From positions 2,474 to 66,473 of the forward strand of contig BRYA01000438.1 of the NCBI GenBank assembly GCA_030267965.1: a DNA stretch of 64,000 bases, written 5' to 3'. The notes under the pieces were generated by a model. The model was not told the DNA's origin. It searched no databases and was given only the letters and a program-made list of their open reading frames with translations. The DNA comes from Triparma columacea (Eukaryota; Sar; Bolidophyceae; Parmales; Triparmaceae). This document shows, one piece after another, positions 29,452 to 37,729 of the stretch. Position numbers and translations under genes: made by a program. The first letter of the stretch is position 1, and every line of letters starts with the position of its first letter.

Positions 29452-29605
29452 TGTTGAGAGANCATGAGTGAAGCTCAGTCGACGAACCCGCATTCGTTAC
29501 GGACGTAGGATCAGGGAGTTCATTTCTCCATAGGAGTGGACTGCCACGTGTTGATCTTAACCTCATAATCTTTTCTCTTTTATCACAAACACCTCTAATT
29601 CAACA
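29452..29605 (+). repeat. 5' LTR (shorter, contains N)
   Basis: Starts TGTTGAGAGA, then one N at 29461-29462, then 143 bp from CATGAGTG to TTCAACA that appear identical to the right LTR. Compared with the right LTR, about 27 bp around the N are missing. Confidence 0.8.
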
Positions 29606-29636
29606 CGATTAAGAGCCGAGTAGCTAACTACTAAAC

Positions 29637-31013
29637 ATGAATAATAACGTCCTAGGAGCCACTTTCGGTGATAACGGGATAGCAAAGGGAGGATGGACAC
29701 TCTCAACATTGAATGTCCTGTGTGATGAGTTTCACCACCCCCCTTCTCGCTCTAACGCGGTCCGTCAGGCTCTCCAGTCGCTGCTGTTTGGAACTGATGA
29801 ACCTACGGATATCGACACCGGATTCACCGGCATGACGGACGCGCAGATCGACGCCAGGGGTCAACACATCATAATCCCTGTCTTGAACGGGATCAAACAA
29901 CTCCATAAGGAGGCGCTCGCGCGCTCCAGGGGTGGCCTCCCCTACATTGATCCGCGCATAATTGCCAACACGACGGGGCAGATTAGAGGACAGGCGATCC
30001 GAAGTGCCTTCTCTCAACCCATTCCGCCAGGGCTGACCCTGGTCAGGGCCACTGAGGCCGATATCACCAGGAGGGCCAAGCACGCCGTCCCAGGAGAGTG
30101 CAAACTCAGCGATGCCGAGGACAAGGCAAGCTGGTCGCGTGCGATTCACCAGTGGCTCGGGATGATAGGACTCGAACCGGCCCCGTTCCTCCACGCCAGC
30201 AAGAACCCAAACGAGTCAAGGCTCGACATCAGGAACTCGACTTGGATGACTAACGTCCTTACGGTCATAACCAAGGGCTCCTCCCTCGCTGTGTTAATCA
30301 GGCAGGAGGACGCCGCGTGCGTCAACATGCACCGACTGCTGGACACTATTGACTCTCCGGCTCTCATCAACGCACGTCATGCGAAGATGCGCTCCGACCT
30401 AGCGAATGTGAAAGCCAGCACCACCGGTGACATCCTTGACGCCGTCGCGAAGCTCTCTACCCTCCTCGACCTAGCGAAGTTCGACAACCTCACCATCTCC
30501 GAGAAGGAGAAAGCATCACTCCTCACCAACGCTCTCCCTCAGAACGACCAGAGGCTTATGCCTTTCTACATACTGTTATCGCAAAACGACACGATGACGT
30601 TCGCTCAGATGGCAGAGCATTTCACCACCCTAGGGAGCAGGTATGGTGTGAGCAAGAGCTCGACCCCCAGGGGAGCACGTATTGCCCAGGTTTCAGGGGG
30701 GAGCGGAAGGGCAGGGCAGGCAAGGAAACCGTCCCACGACCTCCAGGTCGGTATCTCAAGGGCAGGGCTGCTGAGCTACGACGTCGCAGGATACAGCAAG
30801 TTGTCCCCCGAGCAAAAGACGGACTTGCACTCCAAGCGCGCGGCTCTCTCCGACAGCCTCGCGCAGCTGTGCGAGGAGTACCCGCCCTCCCAGGAGGCAT
30901 TGACGCCTGGTGGTGGTAAGTTTACCTCCAGTCAGGGGGGTCGCAGGACTAAGAAGTCCAAGCCCAACCACTACGGGCCCACCCCTCCGGCGGACGCCGG
31001 GGAGGGTGCCTGA
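29637..31013 (+). CDS. Retrotransposon Gag-like protein
   Basis: 458 residues from ATG 29637, 32 bp after the left LTR. The sequence is mostly helical with a central part typical of copia Gag (WSRAIHQWLGMIGL, then LTNALPQNDQRLMPFYILL). There is no CCHC zinc knuckle; instead the C-terminus is Gly/Ser/Lys/Arg-rich (RRTKKSKPNHYG) and could serve for RNA binding. The frame ends in TGA at 31011-31013, and the next frame is in the same phase. Confidence 0.82.
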   Translation: MNNNVLGATFGDNGIAKGGWTLSTLNVLCDEFHHPPSRSNAVRQALQSLLFGTDEPTDIDTGFTGMTDAQIDARGQHIIIPVLNGIKQLHKEALARSRGGLPYIDPRIIANTTGQIRGQAIRSAFSQPIPPGLTLVRATEADITRRAKHAVPGECKLSDAEDKASWSRAIHQWLGMIGLEPAPFLHASKNPNESRLDIRNSTWMTNVLTVITKGSSLAVLIRQEDAACVNMHRLLDTIDSPALINARHAKMRSDLANVKASTTGDILDAVAKLSTLLDLAKFDNLTISEKEKASLLTNALPQNDQRLMPFYILLSQNDTMTFAQMAEHFTTLGSRYGVSKSSTPRGARIAQVSGGSGRAGQARKPSHDLQVGISRAGLLSYDVAGYSKLSPEQKTDLHSKRAALSDSLAQLCEEYPPSQEALTPGGGKFTSSQGGRRTKKSKPNHYGPTPPADAGEGA

Positions 31014-34000
31014 CTCCCACCCCCCGCTCACGCCTTCTCGATAGGGGTGGCGGGGGCGAACGTTGGGGGGAGGGGGAGGGGGCGCGAGGGAAAGGATGCA
31101 CGCAAGCGAGGGAACAAAGGGGGCAACACACTTAAGGGGAACGAAAAGAAAAAGAAAGATATTGAGGTGGGGGAGACAATGGCTTTAGCGGGTGGCCCCC
31201 GCGAAGGCAACGTCACACGGAACGAACCGCCTCCACCAATCGCACACGCCTTTACAGGCACGTCCGTAGCTTACGGGGAGCTACGAGACTCTACTACCAC
31301 CATAAACGAAAATAAGGGGTGCAGTGCGCAAGTCCCGGCGCACGAGACTATGGTAAGCATAGCCGGCCCCCACAACAACAACGACATATCCACCGGACAC
31401 GAGTACTCTCACTCCCTCGAACCGAGCGTATCGCCGCACCCCACGCACCCGCAGGTGACCTCTTCTCATTCACCTGTGGGGGGGCAAGCTAGCACCGGAG
31501 TCTACAAAGTCGCCTCCGAATCCACTGGACAGACAAGCGTGGTCGGGAGTCAGGGAGGGATCGCAGACCCAGATACACCCTACTCGTTCTGCGAGCTCTG
31601 CGCCGGAAGCGGAGCCCTTACGAACGCAATGATGGACAGGGGCCGTACGGTAAGGAACCCGGTGGACATTCTTCGGGGTCCGAGCCACGACCTGTCACGA
31701 GGGACCACGAGATCACTCCTAGCTGAGGAATTCGCCGAGAACGAGGCCCTGAAGCTAGTGTGGTTCGCTCCGCCCTGCACCTACCATGGCTCATGGTCAC
31801 AACGTAATCAGCTACATGACCCAGGGGTCATCACAAAGAGGGACGAGATCTCGAGATGGGCCCGAGAAGTGTTCACGGAGCTACTCGCACCCCTCGCGGG
31901 GAGAGAAGCGTACTTCGTGATCGAGCACCCGGGGGGGTCGATGCTCTGGAATGAAACCTGGGTACAAGAAGCCCAACGAGTCACGGGGGTAAGGCTTATT
32001 GGCCTTGACCAGTGTCGGTACCGACGAGGGAGTACCCAGACCAAGAAACCGACCAAGTTATTGACGAACCTCCCAGTCGGAGCTACTCGTGACCTTGAAC
32101 GCAGGTGCAACCACGACGGGCCCCACCCAATGCAACTTACAGGGTTCGGCAAGGGGAGGGTCCCGCGCTCAGCGAGTGCACGATCGTACCCACCAGCACT
32201 ATGCAGAGCGGTGGTACGAGCACTAGACGCAGCGGTGGGTATAACGCCACATGCTAGCGACCACGTGATGGCAGTGAGTGATAACCCCCCGAACCCACTA
32301 GCTGGGACGGGTACCATCATCGACACCGGGGCCTGTGCGTCAGTCGCGGGGTCCAACTTCATCGCGACCGAGGTGTCGGACACGTACCGTGAGCTAGTCT
32401 CATGGGGAGGCGACAACCCGATCCGATACAGGATAGGCACGGCAGTCACTAAGGCATGGACAAGCAATGGATCACCGGTACTACTCGAAGTACACCAAGC
32501 AGCGATTGCTCCCAACATGCAGTCCATCCTTGACCCTTACCAAGTCTGGGACACCGTCGGAGAGGCGTGTCTCAAAGTCCGAGTTAAGGGTAAAAGGAAG
32601 AGGGACCAGTTTGGAGGGATTTACAACGTCAAGGACGGCGATGGCAACACACACGGTTGTATCCCTTTCTCCTTCGCAGGCGACGAGTCGGGTGGCGGGG
32701 GCGACCTCATTCTACGCACCGTCAGACCAACCCTGCAGGATCTTAAGCTGCCGTGCATTACCTTGACCAAGAACGTGCCATGGTCCAGGGTCGACTATAT
32801 GGAGGGGCTAGGCAATTCGTCACTTCAGCCAACCAGCGGGGAGGCGTATGTTGCCAGCACTGTGGACAGCGACGACGACGTGGGCGCCGCACGAACCCTA
32901 GTCGTATCGGCGTCCAACAGAGTGAGGCGAACAAGTAACCCAGAGGTATACGGGTGGTTGCCAGAAGCGACGCGCAGGCGCGTGCCGGAAGCGACCACGG
33001 CCTTCGGGATCGCTGACCCCATGAGCCCTTATAGAAGGACGATGAGGACGGACCCGATGGTAAGGACACCGTATTATAGGGACGAGACCCTTTATACGGA
33101 CACATTCTTCCCTAGGCTTGGAGAGGATGGGGCACACCTCAGAGGGACTGAGAAGCTACCCGAGATGATCCAACTCTTCACCTTCGGCAAGTCCAAGATC
33201 GTTCACGCGGTGCCGATCCCTGATAAATCAGCAGACTCTATATGTACGGCTATCGAGGCTATGATCCACACGTATGGAAGGCCGCATAAGATCGTGGGCG
33301 ACTTCGCAAAGGAAAACAGAGCCCAACGAGTCGCACAGCTATGCGCAAAGTATGGCGCGGACGCACGCTGGACTGAACCGTACCACCCAAACCAAAACCA
33401 CGCTGAGAGGTGGATTGGTACGGTGAAGAGGCGAACATGGACGGTGCTCGAGAAGTCCAATGCACCGAGGTCACAGTTCGTCGCCGCGTTGACGTATGTG
33501 TGCTTACTACACAACCACATGCCACGAGCGGACCTGCAATGGCGCACTCCCCTGGAGGCGCACACCCTCCACACTCCAGACGTATCTAAGTTCCGGTTCG
33601 CTTTCTACCAACGCGTGGAGACCTTGGTATACTCTGCCAAGTTTCCGGGCCAGAGATGGCTCCCGGGCTACTGGCTCGGACCTGCGGAGACAGTCGGCAA
33701 CTACCTTTGTGGGTGGATCCTAACCGACGATGGAAACGTCCACCCAAGGGGGGAGATCCGAGCTTCACAAGAGCAGAACCCGCCCCGAAACACCTACAAG
33801 TATCCTGCACGTGGCGGGGACGTCGGCGAGATGACGCGAACTGACGACACGTCGCTCCTTACCAGAGAGCCACCCCGAGAAGGGACCGTGCTAGGCTCAG
33901 GGATACACGCGCACCTAGTCGACACCCCGAGGGCTTTACGCAGGGAGGCGGTTCGTGCGGACGCTAGAGGCACGCTCAACGTACCGACCCCACAGGAGGA

Positions 34001-37000
34001 GAACGAGGATCTCGTGCCGGCTGAGCCCGAAGAGGGCAGCGCCAACATGGCGGCCGCACGAACGACGATGGCAGTTCCACAGGCCGGCTCCGGTGATGAC
34101 GACGATACCGCTCAGCCTGGGACCTTAGTGGCGGCACTGCCAGCGCCCCTAGCGACGGGCTCGCTAGGGAAGGACGGGGGCATAACCCTGTCACACGAGA
34201 CGACCACTCCGGGGAGCCCATTGGCTCCAGCCGGTACAGCGCCGCAGAATAAGTCTGTGCCCCTAGCGACAAGCTCGCTACGGAAGGACGGGGGCGTTAC
34301 CCTGTCAAAGCCGGCCACTCCGGGGAGCACGATGGCTCCAGCCGGTACGCCGCCACAGAGAGAATCTGTGCCCCTAGCGATGGACACGCTACGGAAGGAC
34401 GGGGGTATAACCCTGTCACGCAAGACGGCCACCCCGGGGAGCTTAGTAGCTCCCGCCGGTACGCTGCCACAGAACGAGTCTGTGCCCCTAACGACGAGCT
34501 CGCTACGGAAGGACGGGGGCGTTACCCTGTCAAAGCCGGCCACTCCGGGGAGCATGTTGACTCCAGCCGATTCGCCGCCACAGAGAGGATCTGTGCCCCC
34601 AGCGGCCAAGGACGTTCGGCGAACCCGACCCACTGCCGCCAGCGTCATAAGTTCGCTTGATACACATGGAGATTCAGGCAGTGCATCACCGGCAGTAGGC
34701 CTGAACATGGTGAACGCTGATGGGGAGGCGCTGGAGGATGGCGTACCGGATGACGAAGACACGAGGCTGAACGAGTTCCTGCACGCGATCGACTTCACTA
34801 GGGCTGAACGGGAGGTACTCGCCATCAAGAGTGTAGTGTCGTTCTGCAACGTCGGTGGCGTAGTTACTTACCGCGGGAGGGTCATCGACGACGGCCGTGA
34901 ATTACCACCAATTCGGTTCACGCGCGAGGAAGCTGTGGCCGCCAACCCTGATAACGCTAAGCCTCTGTCCGACTTCATCCTGAAGTTCCTCTCCTCCACA
35001 CCGGGGCCACGTGTCGGCAACCGCAGCGATGGCAAGGTGTACACCGGGGGAAGGAACACGTCACTCGGGAAGGACCTCGCCTGGGCGAGCGCGCGACGAC
35101 GGGCAGAGCAGAGGCTCGCCACCGAGCAGGGTGGGACTGCGACCAGTTCAGCACTCCTGGCGCGGCTACACGATGCCATGCCAGCTTGCGGGGAGAGAGG
35201 TGCCCGAAAGATCCGCGGCGCGACCGCTAGCGAAGTAGCAGAGGTCGACGCGCTTGTCGGCGAACTCCACCGTAAGATGGGCTTCAATGACTTGGAGGAA
35301 GGTCTCGGCACCAAGGAACACACGCCGGCAGTGCAGAACCCAGCGATCGACTTTAGCACCACCGCGCCACCACCGCTCAGGGAATCGACCGGCTCTGACA
35401 CGGCGGACGCAGCGATGGCGACGACGACAGGCTCGAAGCCTGCCTGCATGAGTGCCGTAGCCGTGAAACCCACCGGCGGGAGCAGAAGGAGCAAGTCGCA
35501 GGGCGGGTATGGCAAGAAGTCGAAGCGTAAGGCCCAGAAGGGGTCGAACGAACGTGCAGGCTCTTCCCCGCAGGTGATGTACGGTACCAAGGTCCCGAGA
35601 AACATGAGGGACATGGTCGAGTTCGATCAGGAGATGGACGAAAACCACACTCTCGACCGCGTGATGAAGGGCCAGCGGTGGCGCAAAAGCCTACGGAAAC
35701 AGGTCGCAGAGTTCGACGAGTTCCGATGCTTCAGGGTAGTCGACGACGATGTCACCGCGAGGGAGCTGCAGGAGGAAGGGTACCAGTACCTCCCCACTCA
35801 CTGGCTTGCCACTGTGAAGCAAGACGGAACTCTGAAGCTGCGGTATGTAGCAGGCGGCGACCGCATCACATCCACTGCCCAATCATTCTGCTCGATGGTT
35901 AACATGAGGTACTCACGCCTTATGTGGCTGATCCAGAAGGCCAACGGGCAACGGTTGTGGACGGCTGACGTCAAGAACGGGTACCTCCACGCGGACAACC
36001 TTGAGAAGGTGTACGTTACACTAGGCCCGGAATTCGGTCCTGAGCGAGAAGGGAAGATCGCCATTGTCGACAAGGCGCTCTATGGGCTTCCGTCTGCAGG
36101 CCATGCCTTTGGCCGCTTCATGCACGCCATCATGACGTCTCTGGGGTGGACGCCGAGCGACGCCGACCGAGACATTTGGTACCGACCGTCCAAGGATTCA
36201 CTCAAGCGCGACTATGTCAGCTTCTTTGTGGACGACGCGACGATCGTTAGCGATTACCCCGAGGACATTGTCAAGGAACTCGAGCAGTACGTGACCCTCA
36301 GCTCTGCCGGGGAGCCCACGCGTTACCTGGGCGCAGATGTCGCGGTAAACGAGGAGGGGTACACCGAGTTCAACATGGTATCGTACCTCAAGGAAGCGGT
36401 GGAGATTGTCAGGGGGACTCCTTACGGCAACCTAGCCTTTAGGAGATTCACCAAGACGCGCGAGTCATGGAACCCGATGCCGACGGACGCGACCCCCGAA
36501 ACGTTCGCAAGCGAACCAAACGCCACGTTCCTCGGTAAGCTCGAAATCCGCCTGTACCAGCGATTCATAGGGATGCTGTCATGGATTCGGATCCTGGGGA
36601 GGTTTGACATCGCTCAGGCTGTAGCAGAACTGTCGAGATACCAGATTGCGCCGACCCACAAACACATGGAGCTCGCGGCGGGAGTCTTTGGTTACCTGGC
36701 ACGCACTACCTCGTACTCATTATTGATGGACCCAGCACCTCTTGTGCCAGAAGGTGGGGGTTACAACGAGCAACCTGAGTTCCACCAGGACCGCCAGGAG
36801 CTACTGAAACAGTACCAGTCAGCCGGCGAGTTCAAGTCGTCACGTGACCCCCTCCCGATGGGCGAGGAGTTACAGATATCAGTGTTCTGTGATGCGAGTC
36901 ACGGCGACGACAAGGAGGACAGGCGATCGACGACAGGGATAGTCGTCATGGTGGGATCGACCGTCGTGCAGGTCATTTCTAAGCGGCAGGGAGTGATTCC

Positions 37001-37544
37001 CGCGTCCGCTTCGTACACGTCGGAACTCCACGCGGCGAAGCAGGCCGTTGAGCTGATTCAAGGGTGGCGAGTGACCCTCCGAGCCCTAGGCCTCCCAGTG
37101 ACGAAGCCTTCGTGGTTGTTCATCGATAACAAGGGAGTGCAGCTCACGGCGACCAACCTCAAGGCGGCTTGTAAGGTCAAGCACACCGCCATCGGGTACC
37201 ACATACTTCGGGCGTCGGTAGCAGCAGGAATCGTAGCCGTAAAGTGGGTGGCATCAGCAGACAACTGTGCGGACCTCTGCACCAAGGCGCTCGGGGGTAC
37301 GCTATTCCACCGACACGCGTCGACAATCATGAAAACGAGCCACGCGCCAGACCCCGCTACGTTCGAACGTCTACGATCTACGGACGGGGGATCAAGCAAG
37401 CGCAAGGCGGCAGGTGATGAAGCGCCCGTCGGGTCGGTACCTGTCGCCGAGTTGCGTGCAGCCAGGGTGAACTGCATATGGTCAAGTACTACCAGGGCGA
37501 GCGACGCCGACACCCTCAAGGGGAGTGTCAGAATTACGCTGTAA
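31014..37544 (+). CDS. Copia Pol polyprotein with N-terminal cytosine-methyltransferase-like domain
   Basis: About 2,176 codons open directly after the Gag TGA; the first in-frame ATG is at 31179. Domains by position: methyltransferase-like 31580-32240 (ELCAGSGALT at 31590, APPCTYHG at 31766, IEHPGG at 31918, KKPTKLLTNLP near 32045); aspartic protease, IIDTGAC near 32318; integrase about 33060-33650 with acidic residues in YTDTFFP, VGDFAKEN and NHAERW; a linker with four 37-38-residue repeats (34146-34595); reverse transcriptase about 35660-36400 (FFVDD at 36221); RNase H about 36880-37310 (CDASH, YTSEL, DNKG, ADLCTKAL). The usual HHCC zinc finger before the integrase is not apparent. All catalytic motifs of RT, RNase H and integrase look intact. 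Confidence 0.92.
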   Translation, partial: LPPPAHAFSIGVAGANVGGRGRGREGKDARKRGNKGGNTLKGNEKKKKDIEVGETMALAGGPREGNVTRNEPPPPIAHAFTGTSVAYGELRDSTTTINENKGCSAQVPAHETMVSIAGPHNNNDISTGHEYSHSLEPSVSPHPTHPQVTSSHSPVGGQASTGVYKVASESTGQTSVVGSQGGIADPDTPYSFCELCAGSGALTNAMMDRGRTVRNPVDILRGPSHDLSRGTTRSLLAEEFAENEALKLVWFAPPCTYHGSWSQRNQLHDPGVITKRDEISRWAREVFTELLAPLAGREAYFVIEHPGGSMLWNETWVQEAQRVTGVRLIGLDQCRYRRGSTQTKKPTKLLTNLPVGATRDLERRCNHDGPHPMQLTGFGKGRVPRSASARSYPPALCRAVVRALDAAVGITPHASDHVMAVSDNPPNPLAGTGTIIDTGACASVAGSNFIATEVSDTYRELVSWGGDNPIRYRIGTAVTKAWTSNGSPVLLEVHQAAIAPNMQSILDPYQVWDTVGEACLKVRVKGKRKRDQFGGIYNVKDGDGNTHGCIPFSFAGDESGGGGDLILRTVRPTLQDLKLPCITLTKNVPWSRVDYMEGLGNSSLQPTSGEAYVASTVDSDDDVGAARTLVVSASNRVRRTSNPEVYGWLPEATRRRVPEATTAFGIADPMSPYRRTMRTDPMVRTPYYRDETLYTDTFFPRLGEDGAHLRGTEKLPEMIQLFTFGKSKIVHAVPIPDKSADSICTAIEAMIHTYGRPHKIVGDFAKENRAQRVAQLCAKYGADARWTEPYHPNQNHAERWIGTVKRRTWTVLEKSNAPRSQFVAALTYVCLLHNHMPRADLQWRTPLEAHTLHTPDVSKFRFAFYQRVETLVYSAKFPGQRWLPGYWLGPAETVGNYLCGWILTDDGNVHPRGEIRASQEQNPPRNTYKYPARGGDVGEMTRTDDTSLLTREPPREGTVLGSGIHAHLVDTPRALRREAVRADARGTLNVPTPQEENEDLVPAEPEEGSANMAAARTTMAVPQAGSGDDDDTAQPGTLVAALPAPLATGSLGKDGGITLSHETTTPGSPLAPAGTAPQNKSVPLATSSLRKDGGVTLSKPATPGSTMAPAGTPPQRESVPLAMDTLRKDGGITLSRKTATPGSLVAPAGTLPQNESVPLTTSSLRKDGGVTLSKPATPGSMLTPADSPPQRGSVPPAAKDVRRTRPTAASVISSLDTHGDSGSASPAVGLNMVNADGEALEDGVPDDEDTRLNEFLHAIDFTRAEREVLAIKSVVSFCNVGGVVTYRGRVIDDGRELPPIRFTREEAVAANPDNAKPLSDFILKFLSSTPGPRVGNRSDGKVYTGGRNTSLGKDLAWASARRRAEQRLATEQGGTATSSALLARLHDAMPACGERGARKIRGATASEVAEVDALVGELHRKMGFNDLEEGLGTKEHTPAVQNPAIDFSTTAPPPLRESTGSDTADAAMATTTGSKPACMSAVAVKPTGGSRRSKSQGGYGKKSKRKAQKGSNERAGSSPQVMYGTKVPRNMRDMVEFDQEMDENHTLDRVMKGQRWRKSLRKQVAEFDEFRCFRVVDDDVTARELQEEGYQYLPTHWLATVKQDGTLKLRYVAGGDRITSTAQSFCSMVNMRYSRLMWLIQKANGQRLWTADVKNGYLHADNLEKVYVTLGPEFGPEREGKIAIVDKALYGLPSAGHAFGRFMHAIMTSLGWTPSDADRDIWYRPSKDSLKRDYVSFFVDDATIVSDYPEDIVKELEQYVTLSSAGEPTRYLGADVAVNEEGYTEFNMVSYLKEAVEIVRGTPYGNLAFRRFTKTRESWNPMPTDATPETFASEPNATFLGKLEIRLYQRFIGMLSWIRILGRFDIAQAVAELSRYQIAPTHKHMELAAGVFGYLARTTSYSLLMDPAPLVPEGGGYNEQPEFHQDRQELLKQYQSAGEFKSSRDPLPMGEELQISVFCDASHGDDKEDRRSTTGIVVMVGSTVVQVISKRQGVIPASASYTSELHAAKQAVELIQGWRVTLRALGLPVTKPSWLFIDNKGVQLTATNLKAACKVKHTAIGYHILRASVAAGIVAVKWVASADNCADLCTKALGGTLFHRHASTIMKTSHAPDPATFERLRSTDGGSSKRKAAGDEAPVGSVPVAELRAARVNCIWSSTTRASDADTLKGSVRITL
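34146..34595 (+). repeat. Four tandem repeats in Pol linker
   Basis: Four in-frame units of 111-114 bp, each starting PLATxSLRKDGGxTLS and containing TPGSxxAPAGTxPQ. They lie between integrase and reverse transcriptase. Confidence 0.92.
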
Positions 37545-37549
37545 TGGAC

Positions 37550-37729
37550 TGTTGAGGGAGTAGCCATCTCTCGTGGGGCACGTGGACATGAGTGAAGCTC
37601 AGTCGACGAACCCGCATTCGTTACGGACGTAGGATCAGGGAGTTCATTTCTCCATAGGAGTGGACTGCCACGTGTTGATCTTAACCTCATAATCTTTTCT
37701 CTTTTATCACAAACACCTCTAATTCAACA
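37550..37729 (+). repeat. 3' LTR, 180 bp
   Basis: Starts TGTTGAGGGAGTAGCC and ends CTAATTCAACA, with 6-bp inverted termini (TGTTGA/TCAACA). It begins 6 bp after the Pol stop. Confidence 0.87.

Follow-up and report, generated by a model that had tools for sequence, protein, structure and literature searches.

The 64,000-nucleotide stretch of Triparma columacea contig BRYA01000438.1 analyzed here (the window, to which all positions refer) contains, at 29463-37729, a copia-type long terminal repeat (LTR) retrotransposon, whose Pol protein includes, near its N-terminus, a domain resembling C5 cytosine methyltransferases. The reading preferred here, to which a probability of roughly 45% is assigned, is that a protist Ty1/copia element captured a compact (~220 aa) C5 domain between Gag and protease, and that this domain methylates the element's own complementary DNA (cDNA). 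The parts of this reading carry different weights: homology to C5 methyltransferases is very probable, catalytic activity is somewhat better than an even bet, and cDNA as the main substrate is a tentative proposal.

The original prediction had noticed three motifs, ELCAGSG, APPCTYHG and IEHPGG, in the open Pol frame between Gag and protease. This observation is confirmed, and two further stretches, KKPTKLLTN and ARSYPPAL, were added in this analysis. The domain and its motifs are the following:

31572..32258, plus strand: C5-methyltransferase-like domain, Pol residues 176-404, with bounds set by eye
31593..31613, plus strand: ELCAGSG, motif I-like loop of the S-adenosylmethionine (SAM) type
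31767..31799, plus strand: APPCTYHGSWS, motif IV-like, with the candidate catalytic Cys
31920..31937, plus strand: IEHPGG, motif VI-like, with the candidate catalytic Glu, and with His where the phage rows carry Asn
32043..32069, plus strand: KKPTKLLTN, whose KPT is conserved in the phage family
32178..32201, plus strand: ARSYPPAL, which fits the RSxIPxxL that members of the phage family carry close to their C-terminus, and presumably stands at the place of motif X

The only family matches of the domain were found in PHROGs, namely phrog_757 ('DNA methyltransferase', E 0.015) and phrog_2882 (E 0.12). When 50,697 phage records were searched by tblastn, 12 matches were obtained, all from Streptococcus phages (E 1e-3 to 0.6) and aligned mostly at residues 113-178 of the domain; 11 of these records are annotated as 'putative C5 methylase' and one as 'hypothetical protein'. 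Two of the Streptococcus phage proteins were scanned, and both match PF00145 and phrog_2882. The compact phage C5 methylases of phrog_2882/phrog_757, from Streptococcus, Enterococcus and Lactococcus phages and from Mycoplasma phage MAV1, share with the Triparma domain its motifs, the KPT signature and the size (about 210-275 aa). They differ in being stand-alone genes carrying ENP, whereas the domain is fused to Pol and carries EHP, and identity is low (15-25%, also over the 30 phage rows described below).

The domain was aligned with five phage proteins (A1, using 5 of the 12 phage matches) and with nine (A2), neither set being selected for motifs. PPC, S76, I-E-x-P, W126, Y150 and KPT are invariant in both; the candidate catalytic cysteine, C69 in domain numbering, lies in the PPC of motif IV, and E118 of motif VI is kept, within EHP instead of EN(V/P). 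For a larger alignment (A4), 80 of 167 IMG/VR loci were kept, of which 74, with PPC..[W/F]S and 200-300 residues, were thinned to 30; its PPC and S columns are therefore invariant partly through selection, a filter from which A1 and A2 are free. Beyond these columns, none of the 31 rows (30 phage proteins and the domain) deviates at the positions of I-E-x-P, Y, K-x-T and S-x-P-x-x-L. A pattern of the ordered motifs, written post hoc with the query already seen, is unique to the domain within the six frames of the window and absent from 20,000 shuffled Pols; P0057, a metagenomic Pol described below, does not match it either.

The strength of the resemblance was evaluated by a profile of the 30 phage proteins, from which the query was excluded. 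The excised domain reaches 10.8 bits, and the best of 10,000 shuffles (5,000 from the domain and 5,000 from the remaining Pol, 229 residues each) reaches 5.5 bits. By hhalign, the probability was 53% against nine phage proteins (E 1.4e-4, residues 112-174) and 76% against 30 (E 2.4e-5). These comparisons give modest support to a resemblance exceeding chance, though the margin is not wide. The predicted structure appears to have a C5-methyltransferase-like fold, so that the absence of a Rossmann methyltransferase fold, which would have spoken against the original prediction, was not observed, but the phage alignment helped make the model. With this model, the first 20 rows returned by Foldseek are DNMT3 structures, and DNMT2 structures are also among the matches; by VIA, M.HhaI is placed over DNMT3 by about 1 Z, a near tie, and among the structural rows the best-ranked are DNA enzymes.

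The remaining features of the element are listed below. An N stands at 29462, the outer limit of the element can be placed only to within a few bases, and a 5-bp flanking repeat is not visible by eye at the target site.

29463..29605, plus strand: 5' LTR, 143 bp, identical to the 3' LTR, with a TG...CA core at 29465-29605
29637..31013, plus strand: Gag open reading frame (ORF), 458 aa, ending in TGA, named Gag by position only, without Pfam match
31011..31013, plus strand: TGA, the sole stop between Gag and Pol, which are in one common frame
31047..37544, plus strand: Pol ORF, 2165 aa from the first GTG, in an open frame of 2176 codons
32316..32342, plus strand: IIDTGACAS, of the DTG type, which we take to be the aspartic protease motif
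33189..33389, plus strand: integrase core PF00665, Pol 715-781, E 1.2e-4, under the curated cut-off
34145..34594, plus strand: direct repeats inside Pol, 2 x 225 bp, 88% alike
35784..36401, plus strand: reverse transcriptase (RT) RVT_2 PF07727, Pol 1580-1785, E 1.5e-14
37587..37729, plus strand: 3' LTR, 143 bp, identical to the 5' LTR

The Pfam matches are in copia order, the integrase core preceding RVT_2. Apart from the TGA at 31011-31013, the Gag-Pol frame is open up to 37541, which suggests stop-codon readthrough, rather than frameshifting, as a possible mode of Pol expression; a structured readthrough signal near the TGA was looked for, and the RNA fold was not significant (z -1.39). At locus C277, described below, Gag-like and Pol ORFs lie in different frames, unlike Gag and Pol here. 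The observed/expected CpG ratio is 0.87-1.08 inside the element, against 0.79-0.84 on its flanks; methylation decay is not apparent from these values, which are uninformative for a young copy.

Copies and relatives were sought in the 37.85-Mb genome, where only the best candidates were scored. Among these, a single full copy of the element was found, together with related Pols at two loci (C277 and C20), Pol fragments at C1, C658 and C218, and LTR-like pieces at C409, C28, C70, C218 and C516. The nearest relative by RT in the same genome, C277 (Pol of 1567 aa), is without the domain, and inheritance common to the other copia lines of the genome was accordingly rejected. C218 is an old rearranged relative, with no trace of the domain, but too decayed to count. 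The repeat block of Pol (34145-34594) is 89-94% identical at the DNA level to blocks of C218 (L014 2764-3389 and 7097-7405), and the exchange appears from these identities to be far younger than the rest of that decayed element. An ORF named by eye as tyrosine-recombinase-like adjoins the copia element of C277 (L011 8494-9900, minus strand).

A protein search with the RT region, its scoring confined to the 7,992 candidates with the most words in common, returned 60 proteins. Thirteen of them are testable for the domain, as 229 or more residues precede the start of their protease-equivalent part, and the domain is absent from all 13; of the other 47, 40 are too short upstream and seven, including P0057, are unmatched by the protease-integrase profile. 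As C277 and all 13 testable relatives lack any likeness to the segment, by motif pattern and by phmmer, the possibility that it is an already described part of copia going by a different name, by which the original prediction could have failed, was rejected. The pair PPC...S and ENP was found in only one of the 60 proteins, P0057, a metagenomic copia Pol of 2743 aa. Its C5-methyltransferase-like domain, at about residues 1752-2012, matches phrog_757 (E 3.3e-5) and does not match PF00145 at E<=1. The two Pols share a compact domain of this type and an aligned RRC.H..HP...YPP tail; they differ in RT clade and in the place of the domain, which in P0057 lies between integrase/SH3 and RT, and direct similarity is weak. 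In an RT tree of 62 rows, the element (P0001) is sister to C277 (support 100/98), and fully supported branches separate it from P0057, itself a long branch. Because domain place and RT clade differ, these data argue for two separate captures; a common origin of the two domains is unproven, since 1 of 10,000 shuffles scores higher than P0057 against the query domain.

The host genome has PF00145 matches at four loci: C142, presumably DNMT5-like, C378 (two pieces), presumably DNMT2-like, C267 and C467. The DNMT5-like locus has 1854 open codons, and the C467 protein has a long N-terminal part. There are 57 matches to the antenna-protein family PF00504 in the genome, one of which best matches LHCI, then fucoxanthin-type chains; these point to a photosynthetic alga, probably one with a red-type plastid.

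Several results weigh against the preferred reading. The search of the segment against PF00145, proposed with the original prediction, gave no match, as did all other Pfam families at E<=1, NCBIfam, PADLOC and PDB sequences; none of 805 candidates from 5.8 billion proteins, searched with the domain alone, reached E<=1. At E<=0.01, all 30 phage proteins of A4 match PF00145 and the Pol domain does not, so that its link to that family passes through the phage proteins. The phrog_757 match (E 0.015) is not significant alone. Whole Pol scores 6.3 bits on the phage profile, barely over the best shuffle; sequence support is confined to residues 112-178, the signal of the domain on this profile to residues 113-169, and the PPC segment scores -3.6 bits. 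EHP replaces ENP/ENV, and all 30 phage rows keep ENP. The single-sequence model has a pLDDT of only 38, and the better one therefore depends on the phage alignment. When a profile of A4, query included, was run against PDB sequences, the 19 rows obtained (E 0.11-0.27) were two C5 enzymes (8yf3, ranking first, and M.HaeIII) and 17 METTL14, and this search supports nothing. The host locus C467 gets 12.1 bits on the phage profile, slightly above the domain; the profile thus picks up C5 enzymes in general and is hardly informative about the donor, and a phage origin is unproven. P0057 gets only 2.7 bits on that profile, under many shuffles, and the shuffle that beats it against the query domain counts here as well. 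Finally, only one copy of the domain was found in the genome.

Further searches added no relatives. With the domain as a Pol region, 684 candidate proteins included none at E<=0.01. Viral contigs searched with the domain, the RT region, the P0057 domain and a two-row alignment (A6), and GTDB contigs compared with A6, were without result; plasmids gave three weak matches (best E 0.4), in VirD4-like genes. A phage match to the P0057 domain (two records of one virus, E 7) was dismissed as chance, being antisense to an annotated gene in the one examined.

What stands of the original interpretation is thus a C5-methyltransferase-like domain that a copia Pol carries close to its N-terminus, and that keeps the SAM-type loop, the PPC cysteine and the motif VI glutamate; the PF00145 match by which it was to be checked was not obtained, and methylation of cDNA or of host DNA is a putative function. 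Since the domain precedes the protease and a single TGA is all that interrupts its common frame with Gag, packaging with Gag-Pol is suggested: the domain would reach the virus-like particle within the fusion, and the neighboring protease could free or expose it. Methyl groups would then pass from SAM onto cytosines of the new double-stranded cDNA, ahead of integration, and the integrating copy would carry, or be protected by, methylation at arrival. Methylation of cDNA in the particle is the likeliest act because the candidate catalytic Cys and Glu are kept. Low sequence specificity would be expected, as a target-recognition domain could hardly fit into the short KPT-RSYPP stretch. The effects could be shielding of the cDNA, mimicry of host chromatin or silencing of the landed copy.

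It is rather unlikely that the C5-methyltransferase fold has been retained without catalysis, for instance to bind nucleic acid or to act as a spacer within Gag-Pol. The EHP in place of the ENP of the phage rows, the low-confidence stretches of the model (residues 31-39, 71-74, 78-86 and 180-202) and the fact that C277 and the 13 testable Pols do without the domain would fit an inactive protein; however, SAM-type loop, Cys of PPC and Glu all persist at 15-25% identity to the phage rows, which is beyond what a scaffold needs. An active enzyme working on RNA in the manner of DNMT2, either the genomic RNA of the element or the tRNA primer, is improbable: compact size, little apparent room for target recognition, the DNMT2 structures returned by Foldseek and the RNA role proposed in PMC5890265 for a LINE-borne DNMT, which did not methylate DNA in yeast, agree with it, whereas its relatives by sequence are genes of phages, for the most part with a DNA methylase annotation, and the top structural rows are DNA enzymes.

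As to the donor, the preferred reading takes the captured domain to resemble most closely the enzymes of phages and of some algal viruses. That a DNMT3-type domain was instead taken from the host, like the one of KnitGypsy-Dnmt3, and diverged beyond recognition is unlikely; the DNMT3 rows heading the Foldseek results and the C467 score speak for it, while the PHROGs families are the sole family matches, PF00145 detects four host loci and misses the domain, and VIA sets M.HhaI narrowly over DNMT3. Chance resemblance of an unrelated Gag-Pol linker, with which the weak scores, the empty Pfam scan and the 6.3 bits of full-length Pol would agree, is very improbable, as PHROGs, phage tblastn, hhalign and the profile-versus-shuffle test all indicate one enzyme class from different directions.

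In the literature covered (titles and abstract openings, with preprints and most subscription journals outside), a compact-type C5 methyltransferase in copia was not found. Similar domains may occur in dinoflagellate copia elements.

PMC5890265 describes DNMTs in LINE, DIRS and Gypsy elements, with CG methylation by retrotransposon DNMTs, and Symbiodinium Copia elements without any DNMT domain; the counts in its Figure 1 rest on PF00145. KnitGypsy-Dnmt3 of Klebsormidium nitens, reported there, is likewise a cytosine methyltransferase inside an algal LTR-retrotransposon Pol; it is a Dnmt3 in Gypsy, surveyed by PF00145, with several copies and Ka/Ks <0.2, whereas the present domain is in copia, PF00145-negative and in one copy. 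SymbioDIRS-Dnmt3 and SymbioLINE-Dnmt (same source) also have the enzyme in a retrotransposon ORF, in other element classes (DIRS and LINE). The present domain shares one frame, of 2176 codons, with integrase and RT; its standing as a DNMT depends on the homology tests. According to PMC12344493, members of the DNMT3 clade lie in 'LTR Copia and DIRS' elements, a statement credited there to PMC5890265, which has Gypsy; a copia-borne DNMT may therefore already be in print, though of the DNMT3 clade, to which the present domain is not assigned. In three other papers, copia elements appear as targets of methylation (PMC9998398), an N4/N6 methyltransferase is borne by a DNA transposon in Ectocarpus (PMC12477816), and lactococcal phage orphan methyltransferases, of unnamed type, protect phage DNA from restriction (PMC4759559).

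If the domain is active, copia, or a new enzyme type in copia, would join the element classes carrying their own cytosine methyltransferase, and its location upstream of the protease would lead to its being packaged. Surveys by PF00145 may undercount such captures, as this domain and that of P0057 are both unmatched at E<=1. The small size of the domain and a clear mutable residue, C69, make self-methylation of retrotransposon cDNA directly testable. A wider proposal, rather doubtful at present, is that on repeated occasions protist copia elements acquired a C5 methyltransferase of the compact virus type, invisible to PF00145, which methylates cDNA in particles before integration, and that they form a larger, unrecognized set; if so, these elements would apply to themselves an epigenetic mark, or a protection.
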